Below, piece after piece: positions 2,687 to 40,606 of a stretch of 64,000 bases of DNA. The position numbers were made by a program, and so were the translations under genes. Source of the stretch: an uncultured Planctomycetota bacterium. GTDB taxonomy: Bacteria > Planctomycetota > Brocadiia > CAIUPP01. The DNA lies in NCBI GenBank assembly GCA_903901045.1, contig CAIUPP010000118.1:1-64000 (forward strand). Direction: 5' to 3'. Position 1 is the stretch's first letter; every line of letters begins with the position of its first letter. The notes under the pieces were generated by a model. It saw only the letters and a list, made by a program, of their open reading frames with translations, searched no databases and was not told the origin of the DNA.

Positions 2687-3219
2687 TTCTTCTTCTTCGC
2701 CTCGTCGGAGGGCAGGAGCAACTTGTACTCTTTTTCCAGACTGTGCAGGCGCGGCCGCAGAAGAATCTTCGCGGCGGCGCCGACGCGGTCCACGAAGAGC
2801 CCCCCCTCCAGATGGTCAATCTCATGCTGCCAGGCGCGCGCGGCGAGCCCCTCGGCGTCGAACTCCACCACTTCGCCATCCGCGCGGGTCGCGCGCACGC
2901 GCACGCGCTCGGCGCGGCGCACCTTGGCCCACAGGCCCGGCAGGCTCAGGCAGCCCTCCTCGGCAACCACCTTCCCCTCCCGGGCGATTATTTCCGGATT
3001 CAGGTACGCCTCGATCTTCCCCGGCTCGCCGGTGGTGTTCAGCACGACGAAGCGGTAAGGCCAGCCGACCTGCGTGGCCGCCAGCCCCACCCCGCCGGCC
3101 TCCCCCATGAGTTCCGCCATGCGCAGGGTGATTTCCTTGACGAGGCTGCCGGTATCCTTGAGATCGCCGGCGTGGTCGCGCAGCCGGGGGTCCGGATAAC
3201 AGAGAATACGAAGTTTCAT
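2683..3219 (-). CDS. def: Peptide deformylase
   Basis: 178 aa from the ATG at 3219 (MKLRILCYPDPRLR). This start matches the family; an ATG 21 nt further upstream is in frame but adds residues that relatives lack. Removes the N-formyl group from new proteins. All three metal-site motifs are present: GVGLAATQVG (motif I), EEGCLSLPG (motif II, metal Cys) and QHEIDHLEG (motif III, two metal His and the catalytic Glu). It is the first gene of the def-fmt-rsmB operon and overlaps fmt by 4 nt, so translation is probably coupled. The C-terminus is lysine-rich (DEAKKKK). Confidence 0.96.
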   Translation of the reverse strand: MKLRILCYPDPRLRDHAGDLKDTGSLVKEITLRMAELMGEAGGVGLAATQVGWPYRFVVLNTTGEPGKIEAYLNPEIIAREGKVVAEEGCLSLPGLWAKVRRAERVRVRATRADGEVVEFDAEGLAARAWQHEIDHLEGGLFVDRVGAAAKILLRPRLHSLEKEYKLLLPSDEAKKKK

Positions 3220-3397
3220 CACGTCGGGAAAACGGGACAAAGTTTTGCCTTCCTATAGCTCAAGTGATTCTGCTCAATGTATCAGAGGGCGCTGAAGTGC
3301 GCAAGAACGGGCGCGCGAACACTGCCGCCGCGCTTCCATTTTGCTATACTTCTCTCCGTCAGTTGCGTTGGACCGGTTCAGCATGGGATGGAGGGTT

Positions 3398-4774
3398 ATG
3401 GGGACGGAACGGAAGGCGACACGCCGTTTTCGCAGCGCGCTTCAGGAGGAGTTGCGCCTCTGGCGCGCGGAGGGGATCGTCAGCGACGACCAGGCCAAAA
3501 CGCTGGAGCGGCGCTACGCCCTGGGCGAGCTCGCAGCGGAGGGGACGTCGCTGCTGATGACGGTGATCTACACGATCGGCGCGCTGCTGATCGCCGGGGG
3601 CGTCATCAGCTTCATCGCGGCGCACTGGACCTTCATTCCCAAACCGGCCAAGGTCGCCCTTCTTCTTGCGGCCATGATCGGCGCGCACGGAAGCGGCTAC
3701 TGGCTCTGGCGCGTGCGCGGGAGCAAGCCGAAGCTCGGCCATGCGCTGGTGATCCTGGGCACGCTCATCTTCGGCGCGAACATCGGCCTCATGGCGCAGA
3801 TCTTCCACATCGAGAGCCACTACTATAACGGGTTCCTCGCCTGGAGCCTCGGCGCGGCGGCGGTCGCCTACGCGCTCGGCAGCGCGCCGAACGCCGTCAT
3901 CGCCATCGCCACCTCCTTCATCTGGTACTGCGGATGGAAGAGCGATTACCACTTCGAGCACGCGCTCAGCCTCTATCCCCCGCTCATTGCCGCATGCGGC
4001 CTGCCCTTCATCTACTGGCGCAAGGCGGGCTTCACGTACCTGCTGCTGGCGCTGGCGGTCTCCATTTCGTTCCTGATGGACGTGGGCGCGGCAACGGATT
4101 CCTTCCAGGGATGGATGCTCGGCGGCGCGGCCCTTGCGCTGCTGCTCACGGCGTACGGCGCATGGCATCGCGTGGTCCATCCGCTGCCCGAGATCGGCGT
4201 CGTCTCGCTTTGGCTCGGGGGGATCGCGCTGGCCACCTTCGCCTACCTCCTTTCCTTCGGCGAAATGGCGCACTCCCTCACCCGCGAAATCTGGCGTCAC
4301 TACGGAGATCAGGCCGATCTCTTCCTGATCGTCGGGGCGTTCTGCGTTGTCGCGATGGCCGGCCTGAGCTTTGCGATTCTCTCGGCGATGGAGAGCTGGC
4401 GCGACCCTGTGCTGCGCCGGTACAGCCTCCCGCTCATGGCGGGCATGGCGCTGTTTCTGCTGGCCGTGAGCGGTTGGACGGGGCAGATGGCGACGGTCTT
4501 CCTGGCCAACCTCGCCTGCCTCGCGCTGGGGGTGGGGCTGATCTGGAGCGGCGTGGCCGCCGAGCGGCGCAGTCTCTTCTGGCTCGGCGCGGCGTTCTTC
4601 GCCCTGCTGATCCTGAGCCGTTTCTTGGAGTACCGGACCGGGCTGATGCTGAAGGCGGTCGCATTCCTGGCCTGCGGCGCGGGGGTCATTTACGGCGGAA
4701 TCAAGTTCGAGGGCTACCTGCGCGTCCGGCGCGCGGCGCGCGCGCTCCGCAGCACGGAAGGAGGCCCGGCATGA
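3398..4774 (+). CDS. DUF2157 multi-pass membrane protein
   Basis: About 458 aa. The N-terminal ~60 residues are soluble and helical (ALQEELRLWRAEGIVSDDQAKTLERRYAL), the hallmark of DUF2157. About a dozen hydrophobic helices follow, starting at TSLLMTVIYTIGALLIAGGVISFIAAHW. The function of this family is unknown; an inner-membrane location is clear. The ATG at 3398 is chosen because GGAGGG precedes it at a short spacing; an in-frame ATG at 3383 lies inside that ribosome site. The gene overlaps the next by ATGA. DUF2157 proteins are often followed by a GDYXXLXY protein, exactly as here, which supports the call and suggests a two-part complex. Confidence 0.85.
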   Translation: MGTERKATRRFRSALQEELRLWRAEGIVSDDQAKTLERRYALGELAAEGTSLLMTVIYTIGALLIAGGVISFIAAHWTFIPKPAKVALLLAAMIGAHGSGYWLWRVRGSKPKLGHALVILGTLIFGANIGLMAQIFHIESHYYNGFLAWSLGAAAVAYALGSAPNAVIAIATSFIWYCGWKSDYHFEHALSLYPPLIAACGLPFIYWRKAGFTYLLLALAVSISFLMDVGAATDSFQGWMLGGAALALLLTAYGAWHRVVHPLPEIGVVSLWLGGIALATFAYLLSFGEMAHSLTREIWRHYGDQADLFLIVGAFCVVAMAGLSFAILSAMESWRDPVLRRYSLPLMAGMALFLLAVSGWTGQMATVFLANLACLALGVGLIWSGVAAERRSLFWLGAAFFALLILSRFLEYRTGLMLKAVAFLACGAGVIYGGIKFEGYLRVRRAARALRSTEGGPA

Positions 4775-5295
4775 CCCGCAAACACTGGCTCTTCCTGCTG
4801 GCGGTTCTTGTGCAAACGGCCATCCTTGCCGTCGTTCCCGCCTCGCGCATACACACGCTGATGACCGGGCGCACCATTTTTCTGAAGACCGCCCCGGTGG
4901 ATCCATACGATATCATGGCCGGCTACTACGTGACGCTCCGGTACGAAATCGGCAACTTGAGCAAGGTGCCCGGATACTCCAACGAGGGAGTGGAGGGACC
5001 GGTGTACATCTTCCTCACGGAAGGGTCTGACGGCGCCTGGCAGGCAACGCGGGTGGACAAGAAGAAGCCGGCCGCCGATGCGGCGAGCAAAGGGGTCTTC
5101 ATCCAGGGGACCAGGACGTGGAATGGCGCGTTGTACGGGATCGAGCGGTACTATATCCCCGAAGGGAAGGGGCAGGAGATCGAAGAGGCGCTCAGGAAAC
5201 ACCGCAACGAGACGCGCGTCGAAGTGCGCGTGGACAGTTCCGGCCACGCCGCGCTGGTCAGCCTGCACATCGGATCGAAGGTTTACGAGTACTGA
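4771..5295 (+). CDS. GDYXXLXY-domain membrane-anchored protein
   Basis: 174 aa. One N-terminal membrane helix (WLFLLAVLVQTAILAVVPAS) is followed by an extracytoplasmic domain. That domain contains the family signature around residues 45-60 (VDPYDIMAGYYVTLRYEI): the usual GDY triplet reads AGYY here, with LRY as the LxY part. The C-terminal half (GALYGIERYYIPEGKGQEIEEAL, then RVEVRVDSSGHAALVSLHI) is typical of the family. The start has a perfect AAGGAGG ribosome site and overlaps the DUF2157 stop by 4 nt. It probably works with the DUF2157 protein; no biochemical role is known. Confidence 0.82.
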   Translation: MTRKHWLFLLAVLVQTAILAVVPASRIHTLMTGRTIFLKTAPVDPYDIMAGYYVTLRYEIGNLSKVPGYSNEGVEGPVYIFLTEGSDGAWQATRVDKKKPAADAASKGVFIQGTRTWNGALYGIERYYIPEGKGQEIEEALRKHRNETRVEVRVDSSGHAALVSLHIGSKVYEY

Positions 5296-5324
5296 GCGCG
5301 CGGCAGAGTGCGCTCTTCAGCCGT

Positions 5325-5690
5325 TCATGATGCATCCTCAGCGGGCTGAGCGCAGGGGGCGGGTTCCGCCGGCTGCGGCGGTTTCGGCATCAGCAGAGGC
5401 GCTACGCTCAGCGCGACCTGCAGGAGCGTCCCCCAGGGAATGCCGCCGCGCGAGGCCTGAGGCTCCGCCGCCGGCGCCTCCTGTTCGGGCATCTTCTTGC
5501 TCAGTTGGCGCGCCGCAAAGAACCCGAGGCCCATGGCGAGCGCCGCGGCCCCCAGCGGATGCCGCGCGGCCAGGCGCGCCGGGTCGCAGTTGTCGCGCAC
5601 GATCCGCGCGGCGCAATCCAGTTCGGCGAACATCTTGTCCAGATGCTCGGCGGCGATGCTGCCGGAGGGCCCGTTTTCAACCTGCCGCAT
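5325..5690 (-). CDS. Small membrane-associated protein, YqjK-like position
   Basis: 121 aa. The N-terminal half is soluble (MRQVENGPSGSIAAEHLDKM) with three Cys within residues 25-40 (DCAARIVRDNCD). A hydrophobic stretch HPLGAAALAMGLGFFAARQL resembles the glycine-rich C-terminal helix of the YqjD/ElaB group. A second, LLQVALSVAPLLMPK, precedes a Pro-rich tail. I do not recognise a named domain. GGAG precedes the ATG at 5690. It lies 3 bp after the upstream holin-like gene and ends the three-gene minus-strand unit. By position it corresponds to the third gene of the enterobacterial yqjD-yqjE-yqjK set, which is inference only. Confidence 0.65.
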   Translation of the reverse strand: MRQVENGPSGSIAAEHLDKMFAELDCAARIVRDNCDPARLAARHPLGAAALAMGLGFFAARQLSKKMPEQEAPAAEPQASRGGIPWGTLLQVALSVAPLLMPKPPQPAEPAPCAQPAEDAS

Positions 5691-5693
5691 CGT

Positions 5694-6026
5694 TCATCTC
5701 CTTCCGCAACGGTGATGAACGAGAAGCACCGTCAGCGCCACCGCCACCAAAACCGCCCCGACGATCATGTTCCCCGCGCCCGGCACAGGGATGCGCGACT
5801 GAAGAAAGTCCGAGAATCCCGAGGCCACCACCACCACCCCCACCAGCCCGAGAACCCCCGCCAGCAGGGGATAAAGCACCGCCTGCACGGCGGCCCGGAG
5901 ACGCCGATGAAGTTCGTCGCCGGCCTTTTCCATGTAGCAGCGGAAAAGGTTCTCGGCGTGCACCCAGGACTGCTTAAGATGCCCCAATGCGCTGTCCGTG
6001 GGGGGCGGCGTCTCCGGTTCCGACAT
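5694..6026 (-). CDS. Phage-holin-superfamily/YqjE-like membrane protein
   Basis: 110 aa. A short acidic N-terminus and an amphipathic helix (SALGHLKQSWVHAENLFRCYMEKAGDEL) precede two transmembrane helices (about residues 50-70 and 86-103), separated by a short loop with GAGNMIVGAVLV. This layout fits the YqjE/Actinobacterial holin superfamily III type of small inner-membrane protein. A GGAAAGGA ribosome site precedes the ATG. It lies between a YqjD-like and a YqjK-like gene, the same order as in enterics, where the products associate with membranes and ribosomes in stationary phase. The role here is inferred from context. Confidence 0.6.
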   Translation of the reverse strand: MSEPETPPPTDSALGHLKQSWVHAENLFRCYMEKAGDELHRRLRAAVQAVLYPLLAGVLGLVGVVVVASGFSDFLQSRIPVPGAGNMIVGAVLVAVALTVLLVHHRCGRR

Positions 6027-6057
6027 GCTGTTCCTTTCCAGAACTCACCCTGACCTG

Positions 6058-6285
6058 TCAGCCCTTGTTGTTGCGGCCGATCATGAGTCCCACCGCCAGG
6101 CCGATGCTCGCGGCCACCGCCGCAACGATCGCGATGCTGGCGACCGGATGCTCCTTACACCAGTCGGTCGTGCCGGTGACCACGCGGTCCTTGGCGCATT
6201 TCGCCACGTCACCGAAATCCTTCTTCAACGCGCAGAGCTTCTCACGCAGCTCGCTTGCCTCCGCTTTCGTGATGGTCTCTTCCAT
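6058..6285 (-). CDS. DUF883/ElaB-YqjD-like membrane-tail protein
   Basis: About 75 aa (MEETITKAEASELREKL start). A charged helical N-terminal part with Cys in KCAKDRV and WCKEHP leads into one C-terminal transmembrane helix, VASIAIVAAVAASIGLAVGL, and a basic end (IGRNNKG). A helix of this kind after HP or NP is the mark of the ElaB/YqjD family, which tethers ribosomes to the membrane in stationary phase in E. coli. The start is chosen at 6285 because GAGAAAGG lies 9 nt upstream; an ATG 9 nt earlier abuts that site. First gene of the three-gene unit ending at 5325. Confidence 0.62.
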   Translation of the reverse strand: MEETITKAEASELREKLCALKKDFGDVAKCAKDRVVTGTTDWCKEHPVASIAIVAAVAASIGLAVGLMIGRNNKG

Positions 6286-6658
6286 GGCCCACATCCTTTC
6301 TCCGCGCCCCAACTGAGTTCTCCGGCGGGAGGCCCACCTCCCGCTCCAACCTGAGTATAGAACTCGATACCGGGGCAAACAAGAATTTTTCAGCGAAGAT
6401 ATCGGAATTCGGAACGCTCGATTCCGCAGGCGCGGAGCCGCATGGAGGAACGCATGCCCGGCCGACGTTCAACGAGATGCGGCATAACTACTTTCCATTA
6501 GGCGCATTCACCTACGGCAAATACGGAAGTCCGCCCGAGTGCCACGCCATGGCATCGGCTGGCACAATTACCTGACACAAGGCCGCGCGGGACGGGGGCC
6601 GGCGGAAACCGGCTTCACGCGGCCTCACCAGGACCCGCTACGGTGAAAGGAGACTACC
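6286..6658. other. Intergenic region between divergent genes
   Basis: About 370 bp between the minus-strand YqjD-like gene and the plus-strand multicopper oxidase. It must hold both promoters, but I see no convincing consensus pair. The part 6370-6420 is locally AT-richer. An AAAGGAG ribosome site for the oxidase lies at 6645-6651. No gene, RNA or clear repeat was seen. Confidence 0.5.
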
Positions 6659-8791
6659 GTGAGTGCAGGAGTATTGTCGGCAAGCGCCGTCGCACGAGTC
6701 GGTTGGAAGCGCTCGGACAGGGGGCGGCTCGCCTCGGGAGCGTTGGGAATCTTCGCCGCGTTGGCCCTGGTGGCCGGAGCGTCGCTCGACGCGCGGGCCC
6801 AGCCCGTGCCCGGCGGCTCGCTGGACCCCAACACGATTCCGAAGTATGTCACGCCTCTGTTGATTCCCCCCGCCATGCCCAAGACGATGACCCTCAAGGA
6901 GGGGAAGAAGGAGCTTGTGGACTACTACGAGATCGCCGTGCGGCGGTTCCAGCAGCAGGTCCTCCCCGTCACCAACACAATGGGCGCGCCTCTGGGCCTC
7001 ACCACGGTGTTCGGCTACGGCGCCATCAGCGATTCCACCACCTTCAGCTATCCCGGAGCGACCATCGAAGCCAAGGTCGATCAACGGGTGCGCGTGCGGT
7101 GGATCAACGACCTGAAGGACCCCGTGACGGGCAATTACCTGCCGCCGCTCCTGCCGATTGACCAGACGCTGCACTGGGCCAATCCCCCCGGGCCGCGCGA
7201 TGACTTCGGCACCGACCAGGCCCCCTACACGGGCCCCGTGCCGATCATCACCCATCTGCACGGAGCGCACACGACTCAGGAGAGCGATGGCTTCCCGGAA
7301 GCATGGTACCTGCCCGCCGCAAACAACATTCCCGAGGGTTACTCCACGACCGGCACCTATTATGACCTCAACATTGAGACCTCTCCTCTGGGGGACCTCT
7401 GGACGACCGGCACCGCCGTGTTCGAGTACCCCAACGACCAGCGCGCCACGGCGCTGTGGTACCACGATCACGCCCTGGGCATGACGCGCGTGAATGTGTA
7501 TTCCGGCCTCGCGGGCTTCTACCTGCTGCGCGGCGGCAATACGGACCTGAGCGGCAACAAGCTGCCCGGCCCGGCCCCGGCGGCCGGCGACCAGCCCGGC
7601 AAGAGCTATTACGAAATCCCGCTCGTGCTGCAGGACCGCTCTTTCAACGCGGACGCCTCGCTGTTCTACCCGGATAACCGCGCATTCTTCGAGGGGTTGA
7701 CGGTGGATCAATTGGAGATCCCCTTCACCCCGGCCCCGGCGGTTGGCGGAACCCCCAGCGATGTCGCCCCTATCTGGAACCCGGAATTCTTCGGCAATAC
7801 CGTGGTGGTCAACGGCAGGACCTGGCCGGTCCTTCAGGTGGAGCCGCGCCGTTACCGCCTCCGCTTCCTGGACGGAGCAGACTCGCGCACGTTCATCCTG
7901 AAGCTCACCACCGGCGACCCGACCGCCCGGCCCGCGGCCCCGGCGCTGCCCTTCTGGATCATCGGCTCCGATGGCGGCTTCCTGCCCAAGCCGGTGCAGA
8001 CGAACCAATTGATCATCGCTCCGGCTGAGCGCTACGACGTGATCCTGGATTTCACCGACCAGCCCGTCGGCACGGCGTTCTACCTGGTCAATGAAGGACC
8101 GGACTTCCCCTTCCAGGGCGGAGTGGCAGGGGTCAACTTCCCGTATGCGGACCCGGGCACCAGCGGCCAGGTGATGAAGTTCGTCGTCTCCCCGCTGGCC
8201 TCCAAGGACAAGAGCACGCCGCCGGAGCGGCTGAAGCTGCCGAAGATCAAGCCCATCGGCGCGGAAGGGAGCACGCGCACCCTCTCGCTGAACGAGCTGG
8301 ACTCCTCGAACGTGTTCATCGAGGTCGATCCTGAGACCGGCGCCGTCGAGTTCAACCCCGAAAGCACGGTCCCGTTCGGCCCCGTCCAGTCCCGGCTGGG
8401 CACGCTCACGTTTGACCAGTTCGGCACGCCGGTTCCGACCCCGCTGATGTGGGGAGCGCCCGTCACGGAGAACCCGGCTTTGGGCGCCACGGAAGTCTGG
8501 GAGTTCTACAACTTCACCGCCGACGCGCATCCCATCCACGTCCACGTGGTTCAGTTCCAGGTGGTGAACCGTCAGCCCATGGGCGGCGGCGCAGTCGTGC
8601 TTCCGGCGCCGTGGGAGACGGGATTCAAGGACACCGTGATCGCTTTGCCCGGCTGGATCACGCGCGTCCGCGCGAAGTTCGACATCCCCGGCCTGTTCGT
8701 CTGGCACTGCCACATCCTGTCCCATGAGGACAACGAAATGATGCGGCCATACACCATCGGCAACGTTCAGGAGCCCGGGGTCGCGAAGTAG
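6659..8791 (+). CDS. Secreted multicopper oxidase (CotA/bilirubin-oxidase type)
   Basis: 710 aa. Oxidises phenols, pigments or metal ions while reducing O2 to water with four coppers. The GTG start has AAAGGAG 8 nt upstream. The N-terminus has an Arg-rich segment and a hydrophobic core (GALGIFAALALVAGASL) ending ARA-QP, so it is an export signal. All four copper motifs are visible: THLHGAH near residue 200, WYHDHALG near 270, HPIHVHVVQF near 625, and WHCHILSHEDNEMM near 685, with the type 1 Cys and axial Met. The T1 Met suggests a moderate redox potential. The CotA-like start (PKYVTPLLIPP) sets it apart from CueO. It is a single-gene unit ended by the terminator at 8815. Confidence 0.93.
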   Translation: MSAGVLSASAVARVGWKRSDRGRLASGALGIFAALALVAGASLDARAQPVPGGSLDPNTIPKYVTPLLIPPAMPKTMTLKEGKKELVDYYEIAVRRFQQQVLPVTNTMGAPLGLTTVFGYGAISDSTTFSYPGATIEAKVDQRVRVRWINDLKDPVTGNYLPPLLPIDQTLHWANPPGPRDDFGTDQAPYTGPVPIITHLHGAHTTQESDGFPEAWYLPAANNIPEGYSTTGTYYDLNIETSPLGDLWTTGTAVFEYPNDQRATALWYHDHALGMTRVNVYSGLAGFYLLRGGNTDLSGNKLPGPAPAAGDQPGKSYYEIPLVLQDRSFNADASLFYPDNRAFFEGLTVDQLEIPFTPAPAVGGTPSDVAPIWNPEFFGNTVVVNGRTWPVLQVEPRRYRLRFLDGADSRTFILKLTTGDPTARPAAPALPFWIIGSDGGFLPKPVQTNQLIIAPAERYDVILDFTDQPVGTAFYLVNEGPDFPFQGGVAGVNFPYADPGTSGQVMKFVVSPLASKDKSTPPERLKLPKIKPIGAEGSTRTLSLNELDSSNVFIEVDPETGAVEFNPESTVPFGPVQSRLGTLTFDQFGTPVPTPLMWGAPVTENPALGATEVWEFYNFTADAHPIHVHVVQFQVVNRQPMGGGAVVLPAPWETGFKDTVIALPGWITRVRAKFDIPGLFVWHCHILSHEDNEMMRPYTIGNVQEPGVAK

Positions 8792-8871: not shown

Positions 8872-10884
8872 TTACGGCACCCGGGCAGGCAGGATGACCA
8901 TCGTATGCCCGGCGAAGTGCAGACGCTTCTGCACCGCGAAAGCGGTCTCGTTATGCAGGATCGGCTGGTACCAGCGCTCGCGCTGGAAGACCAGCTGCCC
9001 GGCGAAGAAGGTGGCCGGATGGAACTCCCGGCCCACGCTCAGGCAAAGCTGCTCCAACTCCGAGATCACGTCCGTGCCGAACGTCATCCGGTACGTGGAG
9101 GCAAAGCCCTGGTCGTTCGCCAGCTTCACATACCGCGCCAGGTTCTCTTCCGTCGCCTTGCGCAGCCGGGCCAGCGGGTCCTCTTCCCTCAGCGCCGCGG
9201 AGTCCACCACCCCCGCCGAGACGAAGACGATGTTCTTGAACTGCCCCGGGAACATGCGCATCAAGGTCAGCGTGGAGTGGATGCCCAGCCCGGAATAGCC
9301 GCCGACCATCACCACGGCGGTCGGCTTCTCCCGGTCCAGCGGAGGCGGAGGCCCGACCACCGCCTGCGGCATGTCCACCAGGCTCTGGAACAGCTTGGCG
9401 AGCCGCGCGTTCATGGCGGCATAGTGATGCCGCACGATGAAACAGAGGGCGACCAGCAGCGCCGTAACCAGCAGCGTGAGCCAGCCCCCCTCGGTGAATT
9501 TCTCCACGGTGGTCAGCGCAAGAATCGTGGCGCAGAACAGCAGGCCGACGACGAAGAGCAGGAAGCGCCGCTTCCAGGGCTTGCCCGTCCGGCGCTGCCC
9601 GAAATGCCAGCGCGACATGGAGAGCATGGAGAGCGAGAACGTGAGGAAGACGTTGATGCTGTACATCACCACGAGGCGGCGCACGTCGCCGTGCGAGTAC
9701 AGGAGGGTGGCCATGGCCGCGAGCCCCATGAGCAGCACGCCGTCGCGCGTGGTCAACCGCTCCGAGAGCGTCGCGAAACGGCGCGGCATCCAGGAGTCGA
9801 TCGCCATGTTGGCGAGCACGCGCGGACCGTCGATGAACCCGGCCTGCGCCGCGACCACGAGCAGCGCCCCCTCGGAGAACAGCGTCAGGATCACCAGCAG
9901 GCCGCCGAACGGCAGGCCGCCCATCACCCGCTCGGCCAGGACGGCGTTGAGCGTCTTGTCCGGCGAAATCTGCACCCGGAAGAGCAGGTAGCAGAAGAGC
10001 AGGCCGGAGGCCGTGATGGCCAGCGAGAGCGCCATGTAGATCATCGTGCGCTGGGCGGTCTGAACGCGCGGCTCGCGCATGATCGGCAGGCCGTTGGAGA
10101 CGGCCTCGATCCCGGTGTACGTGCCGCCCCCCAGCGAGTATGCATGGATGAAGAGGAAGAACATGCCGCCGAGTCCCAGCGTGGCCAGGCCGGAGTGGAA
10201 GCCGCCGGTCACCTGCGTGGTGACGCTCGGCAGCGCCGGCGCGCACGCCAGCACGCCCCCGATCACCAGCACGGCATGCGTCGCCAGGAACAACAGGAAC
10301 ACCGGCAGCAGAATGAGGATGGACTCCTTCACTCCGCGGATATTGATGGTGATGAGACCGAGGATCAGGCCCGCTTCCACGGGAAGTTTAGTCCCCTGCC
10401 AGCCGGGGGGCATGAAACTGAAAAGCGCATCCCCCGCCGCCGCGATGGAGACCGTAATCGTCAGGATGTAGTCCACCAGCAGCGCCGACCCGGAGACCAC
10501 ACCCGCACGCTCCCCCAGCAGCGCCGTGGCAACCAGGTACCCGCCGCCGCCGTGCGGAAACCGCTCGATGATCCGGCTGTAGCAGGCCGAAATGATGAAC
10601 ACCGTGGCCATCACCAGCAGGGCCAGCGGAACGGCCAGGTACGTATGCTCCCCCAGCGTGCGGTAAGCTTCTTCAGGACCATAGGAGGAGGAGGAGAGGC
10701 CGTCGGCCCCCAGCCCCACCCAGGCCAGAAACGCAAAGACCGAGAGATGGCTGAAAACGCGGGAGTCGGTCAGGTCGTGGCGCTTGCCGAAGACCAGGCG
10801 CTTGGCGCGGCCGAACATCGAGGGACATTCCTCTGGCGGAGGGACCGGCGTGTGGGATGGGTCAGGCAAATTGGCGTTGCCCAT
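8872..10884 (-). CDS. kimA: KimA-type APC-superfamily potassium transporter
   Basis: 670 aa: about a dozen transmembrane helices, then a cytoplasmic C-terminal domain of about 170 residues. KimA (formerly YdaO) is a high-affinity K+/H+ symporter of the APC superfamily. Matching blocks are ADGLSSSSYGPEEAY in helix 1, FPHGGGGYLVATALLGE, and SGSALLVDYILTITVSIAAA in helix 3. The C-terminal end has RWYQPILHNETAF, like the KimA tail. The start at 10884 has GGAG 8 nt upstream; an in-frame ATG 66 nt inside (MFGRAKRLVFGK) also has a fair site and fits the family start better, so the N-terminus is uncertain. The mRNA leader carries a c-di-AMP riboswitch, the regulator expected for K+ importers, and this strengthens the substrate call. 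Confidence 0.87.
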   Translation of the reverse strand: MGNANLPDPSHTPVPPPEECPSMFGRAKRLVFGKRHDLTDSRVFSHLSVFAFLAWVGLGADGLSSSSYGPEEAYRTLGEHTYLAVPLALLVMATVFIISACYSRIIERFPHGGGGYLVATALLGERAGVVSGSALLVDYILTITVSIAAAGDALFSFMPPGWQGTKLPVEAGLILGLITINIRGVKESILILLPVFLLFLATHAVLVIGGVLACAPALPSVTTQVTGGFHSGLATLGLGGMFFLFIHAYSLGGGTYTGIEAVSNGLPIMREPRVQTAQRTMIYMALSLAITASGLLFCYLLFRVQISPDKTLNAVLAERVMGGLPFGGLLVILTLFSEGALLVVAAQAGFIDGPRVLANMAIDSWMPRRFATLSERLTTRDGVLLMGLAAMATLLYSHGDVRRLVVMYSINVFLTFSLSMLSMSRWHFGQRRTGKPWKRRFLLFVVGLLFCATILALTTVEKFTEGGWLTLLVTALLVALCFIVRHHYAAMNARLAKLFQSLVDMPQAVVGPPPPLDREKPTAVVMVGGYSGLGIHSTLTLMRMFPGQFKNIVFVSAGVVDSAALREEDPLARLRKATEENLARYVKLANDQGFASTYRMTFGTDVISELEQLCLSVGREFHPATFFAGQLVFQRERWYQPILHNETAFAVQKRLHFAGHTMVILPARVP

Positions 10885-10942
10885 GAGCAGGCTCCGAGCG
10901 GTCGCTTGTGGGAGAGTCGGCCTTCGACCTGTTCGGAAGGGT

Positions 10943-11068
10943 CTCTCCTTCGACGCCTGCGAGGTTAGCTGACGGGCTCGGGCCGAAGAAGTTGCCCTTC
11001 GCTTGGTAGCGATACGCCCCGGAGAATTGGTTCCCCCGCTCCCGCCATGGCGGGATTCGGCGCGACAA
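10943..11068 (-). promoter_or_regulatory. c-di-AMP riboswitch (ydaO/yuaA class)
   Basis: Read on the minus strand, this leader has the ydaO core in order: CCGAATCC (about 11060), a CCCGCCATGGCGGG hairpin, GGGGGAACCAATTC (11037-11024), GGGGCGTATC (11020-11011), AGGGCAA, then CGTCAGCTAACCTCGCAGGC (10974-10955) followed by GAAGGAGAG. These match the conserved blocks of the c-di-AMP-sensing class, including the pseudoknot-forming GCTAACCTCG segment. It lies 60-180 nt upstream of the kimA-like start. Downstream, GGAGAG (10948-10943) can pair with CTCTCC (10916-10911) around an inner CCTTC/GAAGG stem, which may be part of the switching region. High c-di-AMP is expected to turn the transporter off. 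Confidence 0.92.
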
Positions 11069-11152
11069 CAAAACTATAACAACTGGGCAGGGATGGGTCA
11101 ACCGTACCTGTGCGTTGGGAAGTGTATCGCCTGCGCGCGGAAAGCGCCCCGC

Positions 11153-25035: not shown

Positions 25036-26421
25036 GTGGCGAATTACCATTTTGTCGGCGTAGCCGGTATCGGCATGAGCGCGCTGGCGCAACTGGCGCG
25101 GGCGCGCGGAGACACTGTCACCGGCTCGGACCGGTATTTCGACCAGGGGGACATGCCCGACCGCCGCGCGCGCCTGGAGGCGCAGGGCATCCGCATCTTT
25201 CCGCAGGACGGCAGCGCCATCCGCCGCGACATCACCCACCTGGTGGTCTCCACCGCCATCGAGGACCAGAACCTGGACCTGGCCCGCGCCCGCGAACTGG
25301 GGCTGACGACCATCCACCGTTCGCGCGTGCTCTCCAATTTCTTCCAGGAATGCCACCGCGGCGTCGCCGTCACCGGCAGCTTCGGCAAGACCACCATCAC
25401 CGCCCTCATCGGCTGGGGGCTGGCCAGCGCCGGGCTGAAGCCGATGGTGGTCAACGGCGGCATCATGCGCAACTTCGAGAATGAAAAGATGATCGGCAAC
25501 GCCGTCCCCGGCGACGGGGAATACGCCTGCATCGAAGCGGATGAGAGCGACGGCACCTGCATCAACTACCGCTCCAGCGTGGGCGTCATCACCGGCATCG
25601 CGCGCGACCACAAGGAGCCGGACGAACTGCAGCGCATCTTCATCACCTTCGCCGCCAACACGCGCGACGCGCTCGTGGTCAGCCCGCAGGCCGGCGCGAT
25701 ATTGATCGGGCAGCCGGGGCCGCGCCGCGTGACCTTCGGGTTGCAGGATGGCGACGTGCGCCCCCGGCGGATCCACCTGGGCAGCCGCGACGTCCGTTTC
25801 AACGTCGGCAACACCCGCTTCACCCTGCGGCAGATCGGCGCGTACAGCGTCTTCAACGCGCTGGCGGCCATCGCCGCGCTTCGCGAGATGGGGGTAACCG
25901 ACCACAGCATCGAGAACGCGCTGCGGCGTTTCGAGGGGGTCGGGCGGCGGATGGAGCTCATCAACCGGGTGCGCGGCGTGCGCATCTTCGACGACTTCGC
26001 GCACAACCCCAGCAAGATCGAGGCGGCGGTGGAGGCGGTGCGCCGCGCCGGCGCGCGCCGCGTGCTGGGGGTCTTCCAGTTCCACGGCTTCGGCCCGGCG
26101 CGCTTCATGCGGCAGGAACTGGTGGAGGTGCTCGCCCGCTGCCTGGGGAAGGAGGATCGGCTCTGGCTGCTGCCGATCTACTACGCCGGCGGGACGGCGG
26201 CGAAAGACATCAGCGCGGCGGAGATCGCCGCCGAAGCCGCCGCGCGCAGCGCGCCGGTCAGCGCCGCCGCCGACCGCGCAGAACTGCTTTCCGCACTCCG
26301 CCAGACCGCGCAGGAGAAGGACACCATCCTCGTCATGGGCGCGCGCGACGACACTCTCACCGCCCTCTGCCGCGAAATCGCCCAGGCGCTGGAATCCGCC
26401 CCGCCCGTGAAAGGCGCGTGA
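25036..26421 (+). CDS. Divergent MurC/Mpl-like Mur ligase
   Basis: 461 aa with the three Mur domains. The Rossmann start YHFVGVAGIGMSALAQLARARG is as in MurC. The central ATPase has GSFGKTTIT as P-loop (about residue 115; MurC and Mpl normally have GTHGKTTT) and ACIEADESDGTCINY. The C-terminal domain has FDDFAHNPSKIEAAVEAVR (MurC: DDYGHHPTEI). The DHLD-type segment of MurC is replaced by IARDHKEPDELQ. MurC joins L-Ala to UDP-MurNAc; Mpl reuses a tripeptide. The changed motifs and the lack of other mur or ddl genes beside it suggest a non-standard substrate or recycling role. GTG start; no good ribosome site. Confidence 0.72.
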   Translation: MANYHFVGVAGIGMSALAQLARARGDTVTGSDRYFDQGDMPDRRARLEAQGIRIFPQDGSAIRRDITHLVVSTAIEDQNLDLARARELGLTTIHRSRVLSNFFQECHRGVAVTGSFGKTTITALIGWGLASAGLKPMVVNGGIMRNFENEKMIGNAVPGDGEYACIEADESDGTCINYRSSVGVITGIARDHKEPDELQRIFITFAANTRDALVVSPQAGAILIGQPGPRRVTFGLQDGDVRPRRIHLGSRDVRFNVGNTRFTLRQIGAYSVFNALAAIAALREMGVTDHSIENALRRFEGVGRRMELINRVRGVRIFDDFAHNPSKIEAAVEAVRRAGARRVLGVFQFHGFGPARFMRQELVEVLARCLGKEDRLWLLPIYYAGGTAAKDISAAEIAAEAAARSAPVSAAADRAELLSALRQTAQEKDTILVMGARDDTLTALCREIAQALESAPPVKGA

Positions 26422-26507: not shown

Positions 26508-27251
26508 CTAAGAGACTTTCGTCCGTACCGTGAAGTCCTTGTCCAACCGGCCAATTTCCTGAAATGCCTGCGCAATTGCGTCTACTTCGTTGGGAGAAAG
26601 CGGCTTCGACGGTCTCTGCATCTTCGTGAAATAGTCAGGAATGCTATCAATCGAAATGCAGTTGATGCTTTGCGTCGTACCCCAAGGCGCATCTTCATAG
26701 GCGGAAGCAAACACCATCACGCCCTGAATGTACCTGTCCGTCTTCGTTAGGCGCCCCTTAACTCCCATGATACGGTTGTAGAGAGTCCGCACATGGTTTC
26801 CCACTGGCTTCCCATTTACCAGAAGCTCCCCTTTCCCGTCCGGCGTGACCCATCCTCGCCAGTTCTTTGTCTCAACGGCAAAGACACCTGTGGGACCAAC
26901 TACCACATGGTCAAAATTCCCAAGAGGTGTTTGTATGTCGTTAATGACCCAGAAAGTATTGGGTAGTTCGTCAATCAGTTTCTTGGCTACCAGCACCTCC
27001 CCCTTGTAGCCCTTCCACCACGATGCAGCTTCTTTGTCCATCTTGCGGACGAAGGCGCAGACTACCAGCAATATTCCAAGTTGTATTGCTATCGCTGTGA
27101 TGCCCTTCCATAAGGCCCACTTGGCAAGTGACAATCCGTAGACGAAACTCACCAATACTCCGGCAATGTACAGAACGACAGTACCTCGCGCCCATTTTTC
27201 GGAAACTTGCGAAGACGCGTAGCGTCCCGCTTTTCCCGCAACTCGCGCCAT
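26508..27251 (-). CDS. NERD-domain membrane protein
   Basis: About 247 aa from the ATG at 27251 (GGGAG 5 nt upstream). Two membrane helices near the start (GTVVLYIAGVLVSFVYGLSLA, then ITAIAIQLGILLVVCAF). A NERD domain follows: GYKGEVLVAKKLIDELPNTFWVINDIQTPLGNFDHVVVGPTGVFAVETKNWRG, laid out with the usual E-K-K-L, D-H and E-x-K residues of a nuclease-related (PD-(D/E)XK-like) fold. NERD proteins are thought to process DNA or serve mobile elements; the role is unproven. Its GC content and codon choice are visibly lower than the neighbours', suggesting recent transfer. Confidence 0.83.
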   Translation of the reverse strand: MARVAGKAGRYASSQVSEKWARGTVVLYIAGVLVSFVYGLSLAKWALWKGITAIAIQLGILLVVCAFVRKMDKEAASWWKGYKGEVLVAKKLIDELPNTFWVINDIQTPLGNFDHVVVGPTGVFAVETKNWRGWVTPDGKGELLVNGKPVGNHVRTLYNRIMGVKGRLTKTDRYIQGVMVFASAYEDAPWGTTQSINCISIDSIPDYFTKMQRPSKPLSPNEVDAIAQAFQEIGRLDKDFTVRTKVS

Positions 27252-27412
27252 GTTGTCTCCCTCAAGACGGTTCGGGTGCGCCACGCTCAAGGAGCATAAG
27301 GGAAGGACTACGGCCGTGGCTGCCGCCCCAATCGCAAATCGCTATTCAGTAATCAAGAGGGGGTCGCAAGCGCCCCCGAGTAATCCACAATCATCCGTAC
27401 ACCTGCCCCGTC

Positions 27413-27910
27413 TCACTCCATGACCTTGACGAAGATCAGCTTCCCATCCTCCGGCGCGTAGAAATCCGCCAGCGTGGCTTCCAGCTTGTAGCCGCAGCGC
27501 AGGTAGAACTGGCGGGTGGGTTCGTATTGGGTCTTGCTGGAGGTCTCGACGTAGATTCGCTTCCCCGCGGCCGCGCGAACGCGCTCCTCGGTCGCCGCCA
27601 TCAGCTTGCGCCCGATGCCGGCGCGCTGCAGGGTGGGCTCCACGGCGATCCAGTACAGGTCGTAGCTGTGGACGCTGCAGGCGATCAGCCCGTAGCAGCA
27701 GTAGCCGACCACCTTCCCCTCGCGCTCGACCACGATGAAGCGGTACTCGCTCTTCTCCCCCTTGGTGAGCCGGTCGTCCATCAGTTCGAGCGCCACCGGC
27801 ACTTCGTCGGTGCGGAAGTACTTGCTGTCGATCAGAATCCGCTCCAGCTCGGGGCGGTCGGACGCGCGAAGCTCGTCGCGCAGTATCAGTTCGGTTGCCG
27901 CGGCAGACAT
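27413..27910 (-). CDS. GNAT-family N-acetyltransferase
   Basis: 165 aa. Acyl-CoA-dependent transferase with the GNAT motif A intact: DLYWIAVEPTLQRAGIGRKLMAATEERVRAAAG (Q/R-x2-G-I-G, acetyl-CoA phosphate site), then motif B YEPTRQFYLRCGYKLEATLADFYAPEDGK. Last gene of the kamA operon; its ATG (GGAGG upstream) overlaps the ATP-grasp stop by 25 nt. Next to kamA, the obvious precedent is AblB, which acetylates beta-lysine to N-epsilon-acetyl-beta-lysine. This protein is shorter than AblB (about 270 aa), so the role may differ, for example capping a ligated product. Confidence 0.8.
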   Translation of the reverse strand: MSAAATELILRDELRASDRPELERILIDSKYFRTDEVPVALELMDDRLTKGEKSEYRFIVVEREGKVVGYCCYGLIACSVHSYDLYWIAVEPTLQRAGIGRKLMAATEERVRAAAGKRIYVETSSKTQYEPTRQFYLRCGYKLEATLADFYAPEDGKLIFVKVME

Positions 27911-28935
27911 ACTGCATCCTCCAGGATGTGCCGTACCATTCGCTCCGGCGGGATCGCGGCGCGCTCGGCGGCGGCGGCGAACCCCGCGTCGGGGCTGAGG
28001 CAGGGGTTGGTGTTGATTTCGATGACGTAAGGCTTTCCACTATCGTCCACGCGCAGGTCCACGCGGGCATAGCCGCGCAGACCGAAAAGTCCCCAGCAGG
28101 CCAGCGAAGTCCGGCGCACGCGCTCGACGAGCGCCGCGTCGGCGGCGGGGTGGTCATAGGAACGGCGGGTGTTCTTGTACTCGGGTGAGGCGCTGTCCCA
28201 CTTCGCGCGGAAGCCCAGCACGCGTTCCTTGCCCGGGCCGTAACCGTCGAACACGATCTCCGCGACGGGAAGCGCCTGCGCTCCTCCGGGAGCGGCCAGC
28301 AGCGAGACGTTGAACTCGCGCCCTTCGATGTACCGCTCCACCAGGATCGGCTGGGTGGGGAAGCGTTGCCGCATCTGCGCCAGTTTGACGGGCAACGCCG
28401 CGGGGTCGCGCACGACGGAGTCCTCGTCAATCCCGATGGAGGCGTCCTCCTGCGCGGGCTTGAGGATCCAGGGGCCGGGCACACCGCGGAAAGCGCCGTC
28501 GTTTGTAGGGGCGCAGCATGCTGCGCCCTTGCCCGGAGACGCTTCGCCCCCGCCGCCGCAGGAGACCCACTCCGGCGTCGGCACGCCGGCGGCGTGCAGG
28601 AGCACCTTGCTCAGATGCTTGTCGGTGGAAAGTTCCAGGGCGCGGGCGGGGGAGCCGGTGTGCGCAATGCCGAGCAATTCGAAGAAGGCGGCGGCGGCCG
28701 GGTGGAGGCGCGCATCCCCCTCCACCGACTCGACCAGATTGAATATCATATCCGGCCGGGCGCGCTCGATTCGCTCCAGGACGGCGCGCAGATCGCGGTC
28801 GAACGGCAGCGGCTCGGCGCGATGCCCCGCGCGCGTCAATGCCTCGGAGATGTGGCGCACCTGCTCCAGAACGTCCAGAGTGGAAGGATCCGACTCGGTC
28901 GCGGCCACGGCATTATGGGCGACCAGGAGTTTCAC
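27886..28935 (-). CDS. ATP-grasp ligase, D-Ala-D-Ala ligase-like (copy 2), with in-frame repeat
   Basis: 349 aa from the GTG at 28935 (GGAGG upstream), overlapping the previous stop by GTGA. Joins a carboxylate to an amine using ATP. Motifs: FDRDLRAVLERIERARPDMIFNLVES, PWILKPAQEDASIGIDEDSVV (ATP-grasp glycine-poor loop), ILVERYIEGREFNVSLLA, and GYARVDLRVDDSGKPYVIEINTNPCLSPDAG (metal-binding E-I-N-x-N). Residues about 130-148 (GGGGEASPGKGAACCAPTND) are partly encoded by a copy of the family A palindrome (28505-28528), in frame, in a loop before the ATP-binding strand. Normal D-Ala-D-Ala ligase activity is unlikely given the context. Confidence 0.85.
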   Translation of the reverse strand: MKLLVAHNAVAATESDPSTLDVLEQVRHISEALTRAGHRAEPLPFDRDLRAVLERIERARPDMIFNLVESVEGDARLHPAAAAFFELLGIAHTGSPARALELSTDKHLSKVLLHAAGVPTPEWVSCGGGGEASPGKGAACCAPTNDGAFRGVPGPWILKPAQEDASIGIDEDSVVRDPAALPVKLAQMRQRFPTQPILVERYIEGREFNVSLLAAPGGAQALPVAEIVFDGYGPGKERVLGFRAKWDSASPEYKNTRRSYDHPAADAALVERVRRTSLACWGLFGLRGYARVDLRVDDSGKPYVIEINTNPCLSPDAGFAAAAERAAIPPERMVRHILEDAVCLPRQPN

Positions 28936-29918
28936 GGCCTGCCTCCGGCGCGCTTCATCGCGGATTTCACGATATCGTCGACCAACTGCGCGTAGCTGCG
29001 CCCGGTCAGGCCGTTGAGAATCGGCAGGTCGGAGTACTCCGGGGTCATGCCCGCCAGCGGGTTCACTTCGAGGAAATGCGGCCGCCCCTGCGCATCGGCG
29101 CGCAGATCCACTCGCCCGGCGTCGCGGCAACCCAGCAGGCGGTAGCTTGCCAGCGCGAGCGCGGCGCACTCGTCGCTGAACGCCCCCGCTTCGGCCAGCC
29201 GGTAATCCACCAGCCCGTGCCAGTTCTCCTTGTTGTGGAAGGAGTACACCCCCTTCTCCGCCTTCTCCAGCAGCACCACCTCCATCACGCCGAGCACGCG
29301 CGCATCGTTCCCGCTGCCAACGATGCCCACGGTGGTTTCGCGCCCGGGGAGGAATTCCTCGATCAGCACCGGCTGGCGATGCTTCGCCAGAAGCGCCTTG
29401 CAGGTGCGTTCGAGGGAGGCGCGGTCGCGGACGATGGAGGTCGTGTCAATCCCCTTGCCCGTCCCCTCCGCCAGCGGCTTGGCGAACAGCGGGAAGGGAA
29501 GCGTCAGGCGCTCCAGGTCGGAGAGGCTCTCGACGACGAAGAACGCGGGGGTGCGCAGGCCGCCGTCGCGCACCACGCGCTTGGTCATCGCCTTGTCCAG
29601 CGTCAGAGCCGCCGTCAGCGGGTCGCAGAAGGTGTACAACTGGTCGAACAGCTCGCACAACGCCGGGGCCTGCGCCTCGCGGCTGCGCCCCCAGGCTCCC
29701 TCGCAGATGTTGAACACGAGTTCCCAGCGCTGCCCGGCGACGAGGCGTTTGGCCAGTTCGACGCAGCGGCCGACGCGCTCCGTGGCATGGCCCAGTTGCC
29801 GGAGGGCCCCTTCGATGCCGGCCAGCGTGGCTTCGCTATCGAACTCCGCCGCCTCGGCGGGGGTCCAGCCCAGGGCGATATAGTCGGATTTCAGGTCGTA
29901 ACTCAGGGCGATCTTCAT
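28932..29918 (-). CDS. ATP-grasp ligase, D-Ala-D-Ala ligase-like (copy 1)
   Basis: 328 aa. Motifs: ELVFNICEGAWGRSREAQAPALCELF (substrate loop with N-I-C-E-G), TLDKAMTKRVVRDGGLRTPAFFVVES, LFAKPLAEGTGKGIDTTSIV, PVLIEEFLPGRETTVGIVGSG, and DAGRVDLRADAQGRPHFLEVNPLAGMTPEYSDLPI (metal-binding E-V-N). The end, PEYSDLPI, is unlike Ddl, which usually has S-L-x-P. A GGAG site precedes the ATG. It follows kamA by 115 bp and overlaps the second ligase by 4 nt. Two different ligases in one unit suggest two successive bond formations or a heteromeric enzyme. Confidence 0.85.
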   Translation of the reverse strand: MKIALSYDLKSDYIALGWTPAEAAEFDSEATLAGIEGALRQLGHATERVGRCVELAKRLVAGQRWELVFNICEGAWGRSREAQAPALCELFDQLYTFCDPLTAALTLDKAMTKRVVRDGGLRTPAFFVVESLSDLERLTLPFPLFAKPLAEGTGKGIDTTSIVRDRASLERTCKALLAKHRQPVLIEEFLPGRETTVGIVGSGNDARVLGVMEVVLLEKAEKGVYSFHNKENWHGLVDYRLAEAGAFSDECAALALASYRLLGCRDAGRVDLRADAQGRPHFLEVNPLAGMTPEYSDLPILNGLTGRSYAQLVDDIVKSAMKRAGGRP

Positions 29919-29982
29919 GCCATGCTCCGTGCAATGCGGGGGCGCAGAACAGGATTATCCCCGGCGGGTCTTCATAACGCAA

Positions 29983-30018
29983 ATGTGCCACCCCCGGGCA
30001 AGGCCGGGGATGGCACAT
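29983..30018. repeat. Strong hairpin between kamA and the first ATP-grasp gene
   Basis: ATGTGCCA plus CCCCGG (29983-29997) pairs with CCGGGG and TGGCACAT (30004-30018) with one mismatch; the loop is GCAAGG. There is no T-run, so a simple terminator is unlikely. It may be a transcript-processing or repeat element that sets relative expression of kamA and the ligases. Confidence 0.75.
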
Positions 30019-30033
30019 GGTTCGCTTCAGGCG

Positions 30034-31278
30034 TCAAATTTCCGGATAGGCGTACAGATTTCCGGCCCAGTTGCGCATCGTCACCTTGTCGGCGCCGTGC
30101 TCCACGATGTAGTCCGAATTCACCGGGGTCTTGCCGCCGCCGCCAGGAGCGTCGATGACGTAGGTCGGCACGGCGTAGCCGCTGGTGAAGCCGCGGACGC
30201 GGCGCATAATCTCGACGCCGGCGGCCACGCTGGTGCGGAAATGCGAAGTGCCCATCACCGGGTCGCACTGGTACAGGTAGTACGGTCGGACGCGGTTGGC
30301 CAGCAGGCGCTGCCAGAGCCGCTTGAGCGTCTCGGCGTCGTCGTTGATCCCGCGCAGCAGCACCGTCTGCGACCCCAGGACCACGCCGCCGTCGGCGATG
30401 GTTGCCAATGCGCGCTCGACCTCGGGGGTGACTTCCCGCGGGTGGCTGAAATGGACGGAGAGGTAGAAGGCGCCGTTGGAGCGCAGCGTCCGCACCAGGC
30501 GCGGCGTGATGCGCTGCGGCAGGTAGCTCGGGACGCGGCTGCCCAGGCGCACCATCTCGATGTGGGGAATGGAGCGGAAGCGGCGGATGATCCGCGCCAG
30601 CACCGTCTCGCTCAGCAGGAGCGGGTCGCCGCCGCTGATCAGCACGTCGCGCACCTGCGGCTGGCCCTCCACATATGCAGCGGCCAACTCCAGCCTCTGC
30701 AGCACCGAGCCCAGTTCGCCGTTGCCCACCAGCCGGCTGCGCGTGCAGTAACGGCAGTAGGAGGCGCACTTGTCGGAGGAGAGGAAAAGCACACGGTCCG
30801 GGTAGCGATGCACCAGCCCCGGGGTCTTCATGTCGTGATCTTCACCGCAGGGGTCTTCCATATCGGTGGGGGAGCAATAGAGCTCCTTGACCGAGGGGAC
30901 GACCTGGCGGCGGATCGGGCACTCCGCGTTGTCGCGCTCCATGAGCGAGGCCCAGTACGGGGTGACGCCGACGACGAACTTGTTGCAGGCGATGGTCAGG
31001 CCGTCGATCTCCTCGCCGCTGAGCTCCAGAATGCGCTGGAAGTCCTGCAGGGAGCGAAGACGATGGCTCATCTGCCAGCGCCAGTCGGACCATTGTTCAT
31101 CCGTGGCGTCAAAGGCGGCGCGGCCAACGAGGCGGTGGCCGGAGGCGGGTGCGCGAGCGACTTCTTGTACGGCGGTGAGTGGGCGCAATGCGCCCGGAGG
31201 TTCCGGCACGTCATCCGCGCCGGACGTTTCGGCAACTTCTTCCACGACCACAGGCAACCTCTGAGCAGAGGTCTCCAT
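30034..31278 (-). CDS. kamA: Lysine 2,3-aminomutase (KamA family radical SAM)
   Basis: 414 aa, the normal length. Moves the amino group of L-lysine from C2 to C3, giving beta-lysine, using SAM, a 4Fe-4S cluster and PLP. Motifs: KCASYCRYCTRSRLVG (CxxxCxxC cluster, about residue 170), VLISGGDPLLL (SAM), and SGYAVPTYVIDAPGGGGKTPV with the PLP Lys. The substrate Asp pair seen in true KamA appears to sit in the YYLYQCDPVMGTSHFRTSVAAG and APGGGGK regions, consistent with lysine. ATG at 31278 has AGGAG 7 nt upstream; upstream codons to 31350 are an open extension. First gene of the kamA-ligase-ligase-GNAT operon. Confidence 0.9.
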   Translation of the reverse strand: METSAQRLPVVVEEVAETSGADDVPEPPGALRPLTAVQEVARAPASGHRLVGRAAFDATDEQWSDWRWQMSHRLRSLQDFQRILELSGEEIDGLTIACNKFVVGVTPYWASLMERDNAECPIRRQVVPSVKELYCSPTDMEDPCGEDHDMKTPGLVHRYPDRVLFLSSDKCASYCRYCTRSRLVGNGELGSVLQRLELAAAYVEGQPQVRDVLISGGDPLLLSETVLARIIRRFRSIPHIEMVRLGSRVPSYLPQRITPRLVRTLRSNGAFYLSVHFSHPREVTPEVERALATIADGGVVLGSQTVLLRGINDDAETLKRLWQRLLANRVRPYYLYQCDPVMGTSHFRTSVAAGVEIMRRVRGFTSGYAVPTYVIDAPGGGGKTPVNSDYIVEHGADKVTMRNWAGNLYAYPEI

Positions 31279-40191: not shown

Positions 40192-40606
40192 GGGGTGGCT
40201 CCATCGGGGCGGCACGCGCGCGCAAGGGCGCAGCATGCTGCGCCCCTACCACCATCGCGGGCTGAAGCCCGCGCTACATGCCGCTTGGAGAGCCTACCGT
40301 GTAGCGCGGGTTATCAAACCCGCGGTCAACATTCGTTCCTGCCGCTTCCACACGGGGGTGGCCCCATCGGGGCGCCACTTGCGCGCAAGGGCGCGGCATG
40401 CTGCGCCCCTATAACCATCGCGGGCTGAAGCCCGCGCTACATGCCGCTTGGCGAGCCTGCCGTGTAGCGCGGGTTATCAAACCCGCGGTCAATATTCGTT
40501 CCTGCCGCTTCCACACGGGGGTGGCCCCATCGGGGCGACGCGCGCTCGCAAGGGCGCAGCATGCTGCGCCCCTACAACCATCGCGGGCTGAAGCCCGCGC
40601 TACACC
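40192..40606. repeat. 163-bp tandem repeat array made of three palindrome families
   Basis: Units start at 40192, 40355 and 40518 (GGGGTGGCxCCATCGGGGC), exactly 163 bp apart; the third is cut short near 40606. Each full unit contains family A (GGGCGCAGCATGCTGCGCCC at 40226, 40389, 40552), family B (GCGGGCTGAAGCCCGC) and family C (GCGGGTTATCAAACCCGC, from 40306 and 40469). The whole gap between the isomerase and phosphatase genes is repeat-derived. The GTAG of the last family B copy supplies the stop codon of the phosphatase gene (40600-40602). Confidence 0.95.

Follow-up and report, generated by a model that had tools for sequence, protein, structure and literature searches.

A recurrent kamA, ATP-grasp and GNAT gene set predicted to yield an N-acetylated beta-lysyl peptide

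Our analysis concerns a four-gene operon on the minus strand (positions 27,413 to 31,278) of a 64,000-nucleotide stretch of DNA, here called the window, from contig CAIUPP010000118.1 of an uncultured Planctomycetota bacterium (GCA_903901045.1; Brocadiia, CAIUPP01). The operon carries kamA, which encodes a lysine 2,3-aminomutase, genes for two ATP-grasp ligases that we call G1 and G2, and a GNAT acetyltransferase gene. We consider it probable, at roughly 0.6, that these genes encode a dedicated intracellular pathway to an N-acetylated beta-lysyl peptide, which may serve as a solute or as a storage or stress metabolite. The enzyme families, the retained residues and the linkage, fusion and co-occurrence of the genes were observed directly; from these we predicted what G1, G2 and the GNAT act on, in which order the steps follow and what role the product has.

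The four genes and their recurrence

An earlier note on this DNA had described four genes of these families in one overlapping minus-strand unit. Gene calls and Pfam/NCBIfam domains (LAM_C and Radical_SAM in KamA, Dala_Dala_lig_C in both G1 and G2, and a GNAT domain) confirmed the genes and their families, as follows.

30034-31278, minus strand: kamA, lysine 2,3-aminomutase (radical S-adenosylmethionine, pyridoxal phosphate [PLP]); 414 amino acids from ATG 31278, in a reading frame open from GTG 31350
29983-30018, strand not assigned: perfect inverted repeat with a 15-bp stem and without a T-run, inside the 115-base gap between kamA and G1
28932-29918, minus strand: G1, ATP-grasp ligase of the D-Ala-D-Ala ligase (Ddl) fold; ATG 29918, 328 amino acids, family mark FNxxEGxxGRxRE
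27886-28935, minus strand: G2, second Ddl-fold ATP-grasp ligase; GTG 28935, 349 amino acids, 4-base overlap with G1
27413-27910, minus strand: GNAT acetyltransferase; ATG 27910, 165 amino acids, 25-base overlap with G2

A GGAG ribosome-binding site supports ATG 31278 as the best kamA start, and a third-position GC content of 0.83 to 0.90 indicates strong codon-position bias in all four genes. The description as one overlapping unit is exact for G1, G2 and the GNAT gene only, because kamA does not overlap G1 and lies 115 bases away from it. This gap folds at -50.3 kcal/mol (z = -2.1 against shuffled sequences), and its hairpin, present in a single copy in the window, is a possible attenuator, RNA-processing or termination element.

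A scan for G1, with one genome taken per species, identified 73 loci in many phyla, and profiles built from these loci were used to find all four genes. The complete set, its genes close together, is present in 43 loci and in 13 of 14 Desulfovibrionaceae loci, giving 56 loci in addition to the window (57 in total), which indicates that the association is not due to chance. The records are labeled as Planctomycetota, Acidobacteriota, Thermodesulfobacteriota, Bacteroidota, Gammaproteobacteria, Ignavibacteriota, Gemmatimonadota and Omnitrophota, thus representing at least eight phyla by label. Most of them are metagenome bins in which single labels may be wrong, but contamination is unlikely to account for the pattern as a whole. 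The genes usually stand in the order KamA-G1-G2-GNAT, as in most of the 56 loci, but G1-G2-GNAT-KamA and other orders are also seen; the set has therefore been retained together through rearrangement. kamA is linked to the ligase genes in most loci and co-occurs with them where it is unlinked; a separation of kamA from the ligases in all relatives, which the earlier note had named as a refutation, was not observed.

Fusions connect the genes further. Single reading frames join KamA to G1 (L047), G1 to G2 (L032, Kuenenia record), G2 to the GNAT (10 genomes) and a deacetylase to the GNAT (L010, L030). Partial sets also exist: some Bacillota and Omnitrophota have just G1 and KamA, and Spirochaetota just G2 and the GNAT. 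The fusions and partial sets together suggest that G1 acts on what KamA produces, with G2 and the GNAT taking consecutive steps. Within a sample of 199 genomes of the phylum to which the window belongs, 38 harbor G1. A KamA match is present in all 25 genomes whose G1 match is strong (E-value under 1e-60, a limit set after the list had been seen), compared to 106 of the 199 overall (hypergeometric p ~3e-8, uncorrected for kinship). In one of the 25 the match is just a fragment that scores below the cut-off, which 81 of the 199 genomes exceed. Several of the strong-G1 genomes have KamA at a distance from G1; five such unlinked KamAs were placed in a tree, and all fell within an operon-rich group. 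These patterns point to G1 as the probable functional partner of KamA, and the conclusion that the four genes form one pathway is well supported.

The only non-core gene that recurs across phyla encodes a protein of ~585 amino acids that has a GNAT-like domain at its N terminus and also a Hist_deacetyl domain. The latter, of the histone deacetylase (HDAC) fold, is nearest to acetylpolyamine amidohydrolases (PDB 9GKZ and 3Q9B, E ~1e-66). This fusion is the commonest accessory gene, found in 18 loci. The full fusion occurs in 7 of the sampled genomes, six of which have a strong G1 (p ~1.4e-5), with several cases unlinked; in one genome (G130) it adjoins the G2 that is missing from the main cluster. 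A search for an HDAC-fold protein in the genome of the window gave none, and the fusion enzyme is thus optional. Such optional presence is easier to reconcile with turnover or reversal than with an obligatory deprotection step.

Five Ignavibacteriota loci (L066, L067, L069, L070 and L071) carry a lone G2-like ligase gene beside a divergent C39-peptidase-like gene (Peptidase_C39, 26 bits in L067); this pair is a different system.

Properties of the individual enzymes

KamA scores 321 bits on TIGR00238 (cut-off 199) and matches the lysine 2,3-aminomutase of PDB 2A5H with E=1e-118. It retains every lysine 2,3-aminomutase residue that was checked, namely Cys125, Cys129, Cys132, Arg134, Asp293, Asp330 and Lys337 (2A5H numbering), in line with the earlier designation as a full lysine 2,3-aminomutase. 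Among the operon KamAs, the CxxxCxxC cysteines and the carboxylate-binding Arg134 are invariant (52/52), Asp293 is present in 51 of 52, with Glu in the remaining one, and Asp330 and the PLP lysine Lys337 are each found in all 51 sequences that reach the position. In the 2A5H structure, Asp293 and Asp330 bind the epsilon-amine of the lysine side chain, and both differ in the glutamate enzyme. As the cluster, PLP and lysine-binding residues are all kept, KamA should produce beta-lysine. Its scores fall below the cut-offs of both the AblA model TIGR03820 (442.6 bits against 525.4) and the EpmB model TIGR03821 (235 of 369 bits).

The two ligases are related to Ddl but distinct from it; the clean grouping with true Ddl/VanA that the earlier note had named as a refutation was not observed. 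G1 scores 85 bits on Dala_Dala_lig_C and 101 bits on TIGR01205, and G2 scores 67 and 91 bits, respectively, with a TIGR01205 cut-off of 245.65. AlphaFold2 models (pLDDT 94 for G1 and 90 for G2) display the Ddl-type ATP-grasp fold in both cases, and the best PDB matches of the G1 model are Ddl. The ATP/Mg residues Lys97, Lys144, Glu187, Lys215, Arg255, Asp257 and Asn272 are kept in the ligases. By contrast, the triad Glu15, Ser150 and Tyr216 and also Ser281, which bind D-Ala in Ddl (most of the E. coli DdlB reference letters were confirmed), are replaced by Ala, Thr, Glu and Tyr in G1 and by Ser, Ala, Trp and Ala in G2, whereas the Ddl rows keep all four. In a phylogenetic tree, G1, G2 and Ddl form three separate groups, with a support of 99 for Ddl; as rows had been assigned to G1 or G2 by profiles, the tree is independent evidence solely for their separation from Ddl. 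A housekeeping Ddl is encoded elsewhere in the genome (C103, 350 bits). Model scores, tree and active-site residues led us to reject the assignment of G1 and G2 as Ddl.

The GNAT matches Pfam Acetyltransf_7 and Acetyltransf_1. It scores only 13.9 of 205 bits on the AblB model TIGR03827, AblB was not found in the genome of the window, and we accordingly rejected its identification as AblB, confirming the distinction that the earlier note had drawn. AblB is present in 4 of the 199 genomes of the phylum, none of which has G1. The nearest solved relative is PDB 2R7H (E=6e-31), titled "putative D-alanine N-acetyltransferase," and proteins 64 to 66% identical to 2R7H are situated inside complete operons (L184 to L186). 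We know of no demonstrated function for 2R7H, and its name may merely echo the adjacent Ddl-like genes. The protein presumably derives from D. alaskensis G20; the exact 2R7H sequence is absent among 288 genomes of the family, where relatives of 64 to 67% identity are the best matches.

A predicted beta-lysyl peptide pathway and its alternatives

In the pathway that we propose, KamA would convert L-lysine to beta-lysine (3,6-diaminohexanoate), a first step that the retained residues support well, and G1 would consume ATP in making an amide bond, beta-lysine being one of its substrates. G2, working by the same acyl-phosphate chemistry, would then add a second residue or else provide G1 with its partner, and the GNAT would acetylate an amine on either the substrate or the product of G2. 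The end product would be a small N-acetylated beta-lysyl peptide, zwitterionic or neutral, from which the GNAT-like/HDAC-fold fusion would take the acetyl group off again in some lineages. Such a peptide could act in the cytoplasm as a compatible solute or as a storage or stress metabolite, extending to peptides the idea of acetyl-beta-lysine made by AblA/AblB. The earlier suggestion that this operon couples beta-lysine with other acids is consistent with the enzyme families, the fusions and the gene partners. We confirmed that no transporter or nonribosomal peptide synthetase (NRPS) gene lies beside the operon, and in the gene clusters of the neighborhoods, too, neither a transporter nor an NRPS was found and no acceptor protein recurs; this favors a small intracellular peptide. 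The gene set very probably makes a small molecule that nobody has identified. The structure and role of the product are predictions, with a compatible solute as the first guess. Somewhat below even odds, we tentatively propose that the products represent a new class, N-acetylated beta-lysyl di- or tripeptides that would function as intracellular solutes or cofactors in many phyla; the species that use them, among them sulfate reducers and planctomycetes, would be a minority but a sizeable one.

Two further loci provide small hints of beta-amino-acid peptides. In L043, a family S58 peptidase gene (5615-6757) directly follows G1 and is next to kamA; family S58 includes beta-aminopeptidases, and its members can cleave N-terminal beta-amino acids. 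In L234, on a Thioflavicoccus mobilis plasmid, positions 1467-6948 harbor genes for a diaminobutyrate aminotransferase, SbnA, an ornithine-cyclodeaminase-like protein, a G1-like ATP-grasp protein and KamA, possibly a related pathway that joins diaminopropionate and beta-lysine.

Several points weigh against our proposal. The specificity of ATP-grasp enzymes cannot be read from sequence. Some Chloroflexota loci with G1, G2 and GNAT (L059, L060) have no kamA within reach. The operon KamAs do not form a single clade in the tree (9 label changes), which may reflect repeated exchange or recruitment of KamA, or else a lack of resolution in the tree. As regards the osmolyte role, the hosts include presumably freshwater and peat organisms, and a search of 11 operon loci for osmotic or lysine riboswitches gave none.

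Among the alternatives, the one we take most seriously, still an unlikely one, is that these enzymes produce, instead of a compatible solute, a small peptide of a cofactor-like, redox or metal-binding kind. Glutathione and mycothiol synthesis also use ATP-grasp or GNAT steps, and two ATP-grasp ligases and a GNAT without a transporter would suit an intracellular cofactor. Four planctomycete genomes (L108, 4488-5072; L111, 10535-11116; L112, 11387-12100; L115, ~9276-9795) also have, inserted between kamA and G1, a gene for a protein with a CxxCxxCC metal-binding motif, perhaps an iron-sulfur helper for KamA. However, no oxidoreductase or conjugating enzyme recurs in the neighborhoods, and the patchy spread (38 of the 199 genomes of the phylum) is unlike that of a core cofactor. 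Rather improbable is an action on proteins, in which the ligases would attach beta-lysine, with or without another residue, in the manner of EF-P beta-lysylation or RimK-type tailing, under the control of the GNAT and HDAC-fold enzymes. Beta-lysine from a KamA relative is indeed used on EF-P in other bacteria, and HDAC-fold and ATP-grasp enzymes can act on proteins, but the KamA falls far below the EpmB model (see above), no acceptor protein recurs nearby, and the nearest HDAC relatives, the acetylpolyamine amidohydrolases, act on small molecules.

We regard as very improbable that G1 and G2 produce special cell wall dipeptides in a Ddl/Van-like manner, with beta-lysine as a wall component. 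The Ddl fold, a genuine Mpl gene beside the operon in five Desulfobacterales loci and a MurC-like gene 1 kb from the operon end in the window are in line with such a role. Nevertheless, neither ligase groups with Ddl or retains the D-Ala-binding residues, the genome has a Ddl of its own, and the Mpl link is limited to one lineage whose other genes are syntenic too. The MurC-like gene of the window is on the opposite strand and only 25% identical to the Desulfobacterales Mpl. We rejected a wall role based on Mpl/MurC neighbors as lineage synteny. Least credible of all, if by little, is a variant of the AblA/AblB route in which N-epsilon-acetyl-beta-lysine would be the product of the GNAT and the ligases would be unrelated hitchhikers. 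A lysine-type KamA and a GNAT are present as this would predict, but the low AblB score of the GNAT, the fusions that bind the GNAT to G2 and KamA to G1, and the lack of G1 in all AblB-bearing genomes of the phylum speak against it.

The predicted beta-lysyl peptide pathway thus resembles several known systems and differs from each. The likeness and unlikeness to the AblA/AblB route noted previously were rightly judged: like AblA/AblB of methanogens and Bacillus, the operon pairs a lysine 2,3-aminomutase, identical in its catalytic residues, with a subsequent acetyltransferase, but here KamA is below the AblA cut-off, the GNAT is of another family, and two integral ligases and an optional deacetylase are added. 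G1 and G2 share with Ddl/Van the ATP-grasp fold, the ATP and Mg residues, Arg255 and Lys215, but replace the four D-Ala-binding residues and form separate tree groups. In the synthesis of N-acetylglutaminylglutamine amide (NAGGN), cooperating and often fused ATP-grasp and GNAT domains produce an acetylated dipeptide solute. The operon instead combines a beta-amino acid enzyme with two Ddl-like ligases, and no asparagine-synthase-like amidotransferase, the mark of NAGGN, recurs among the neighborhood clusters. The accessory fusion shares its catalytic domain with acetylpolyamine amidohydrolases but differs from them in its N-terminal GNAT-like domain and its tie to the kamA-ligase operon.

We found no description of the pathway in the open literature that was covered; the likeliest earlier mention, the 2009 amidoligase survey of Iyer and colleagues, lay outside that coverage. 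Predicted pathways in which ATP-grasp ligases act in succession and a GNAT adds a cap are already known as a kind (PMC4431377), and the new part looks like the beta-lysine version with an optional deacetylase. Fitness data in a study of Desulfovibrio and nitrate (PMC4001038) were set aside, as they concern another ATP-grasp protein. A set of four to five genes across at least eight phyla, with every step linked by fusions, points to a nameless metabolite of many environmental bacteria, and beta-lysine metabolism would extend beyond acetyl-beta-lysine, EF-P and antibiotics. Misleading annotations could also be corrected, namely those of the Ddl-like ligases as "D-alanine--D-alanine ligase" and of the 2R7H-type GNAT. 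The question is directly testable, since culturable lineages (Desulfovibrionaceae, Singulisphaera) carry the set.

A repeat inside G2 and neighboring features

Further features of the window are as follows.

28507-28530, minus strand: copy of GGGCGCAGCATGCTGCGCCC within G2, in frame, in a low-pLDDT loop
15807-15830, 40224-40247, 40387-40410 and 40550-40573: other copies of GGGCGCAGCATGCTGCGCCC
26508-27290, minus strand: NERD-domain protein, next gene downstream of the GNAT gene (~120 bases away)
25036-26421, plus strand: MurC-like Mur ligase, 271 bits against a MurC cut-off of 335

GGGCGCAGCATGCTGCGCCC is a perfect 20-bp palindrome that belongs to a longer dispersed element; the 4.77-Mb genome contains 125 copies with at most 1 mismatch, against 0 for the reversed control. 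G2 of the window exceeds its closest relative (L005) in length, and the palindrome copy seems to add a loop that is outside the conserved enzyme. The NERD-domain protein matches the defense proteins MAD6 and PglW weakly. PADLOC gave no defense-system match for any of the four operon proteins, and a defense role for the operon was dropped on that ground. The MurC-like gene is distinct from the Ddl-linked Mur gene found elsewhere in the genome.

At a distance from the operon, a cyclic di-AMP riboswitch (10939-11072, minus strand, 99 bits) lies directly ahead of an open reading frame (8872-10884) for a 670-amino-acid multi-pass transporter that looks like an APC-type permease; this unit probably controls ion or osmolyte balance.

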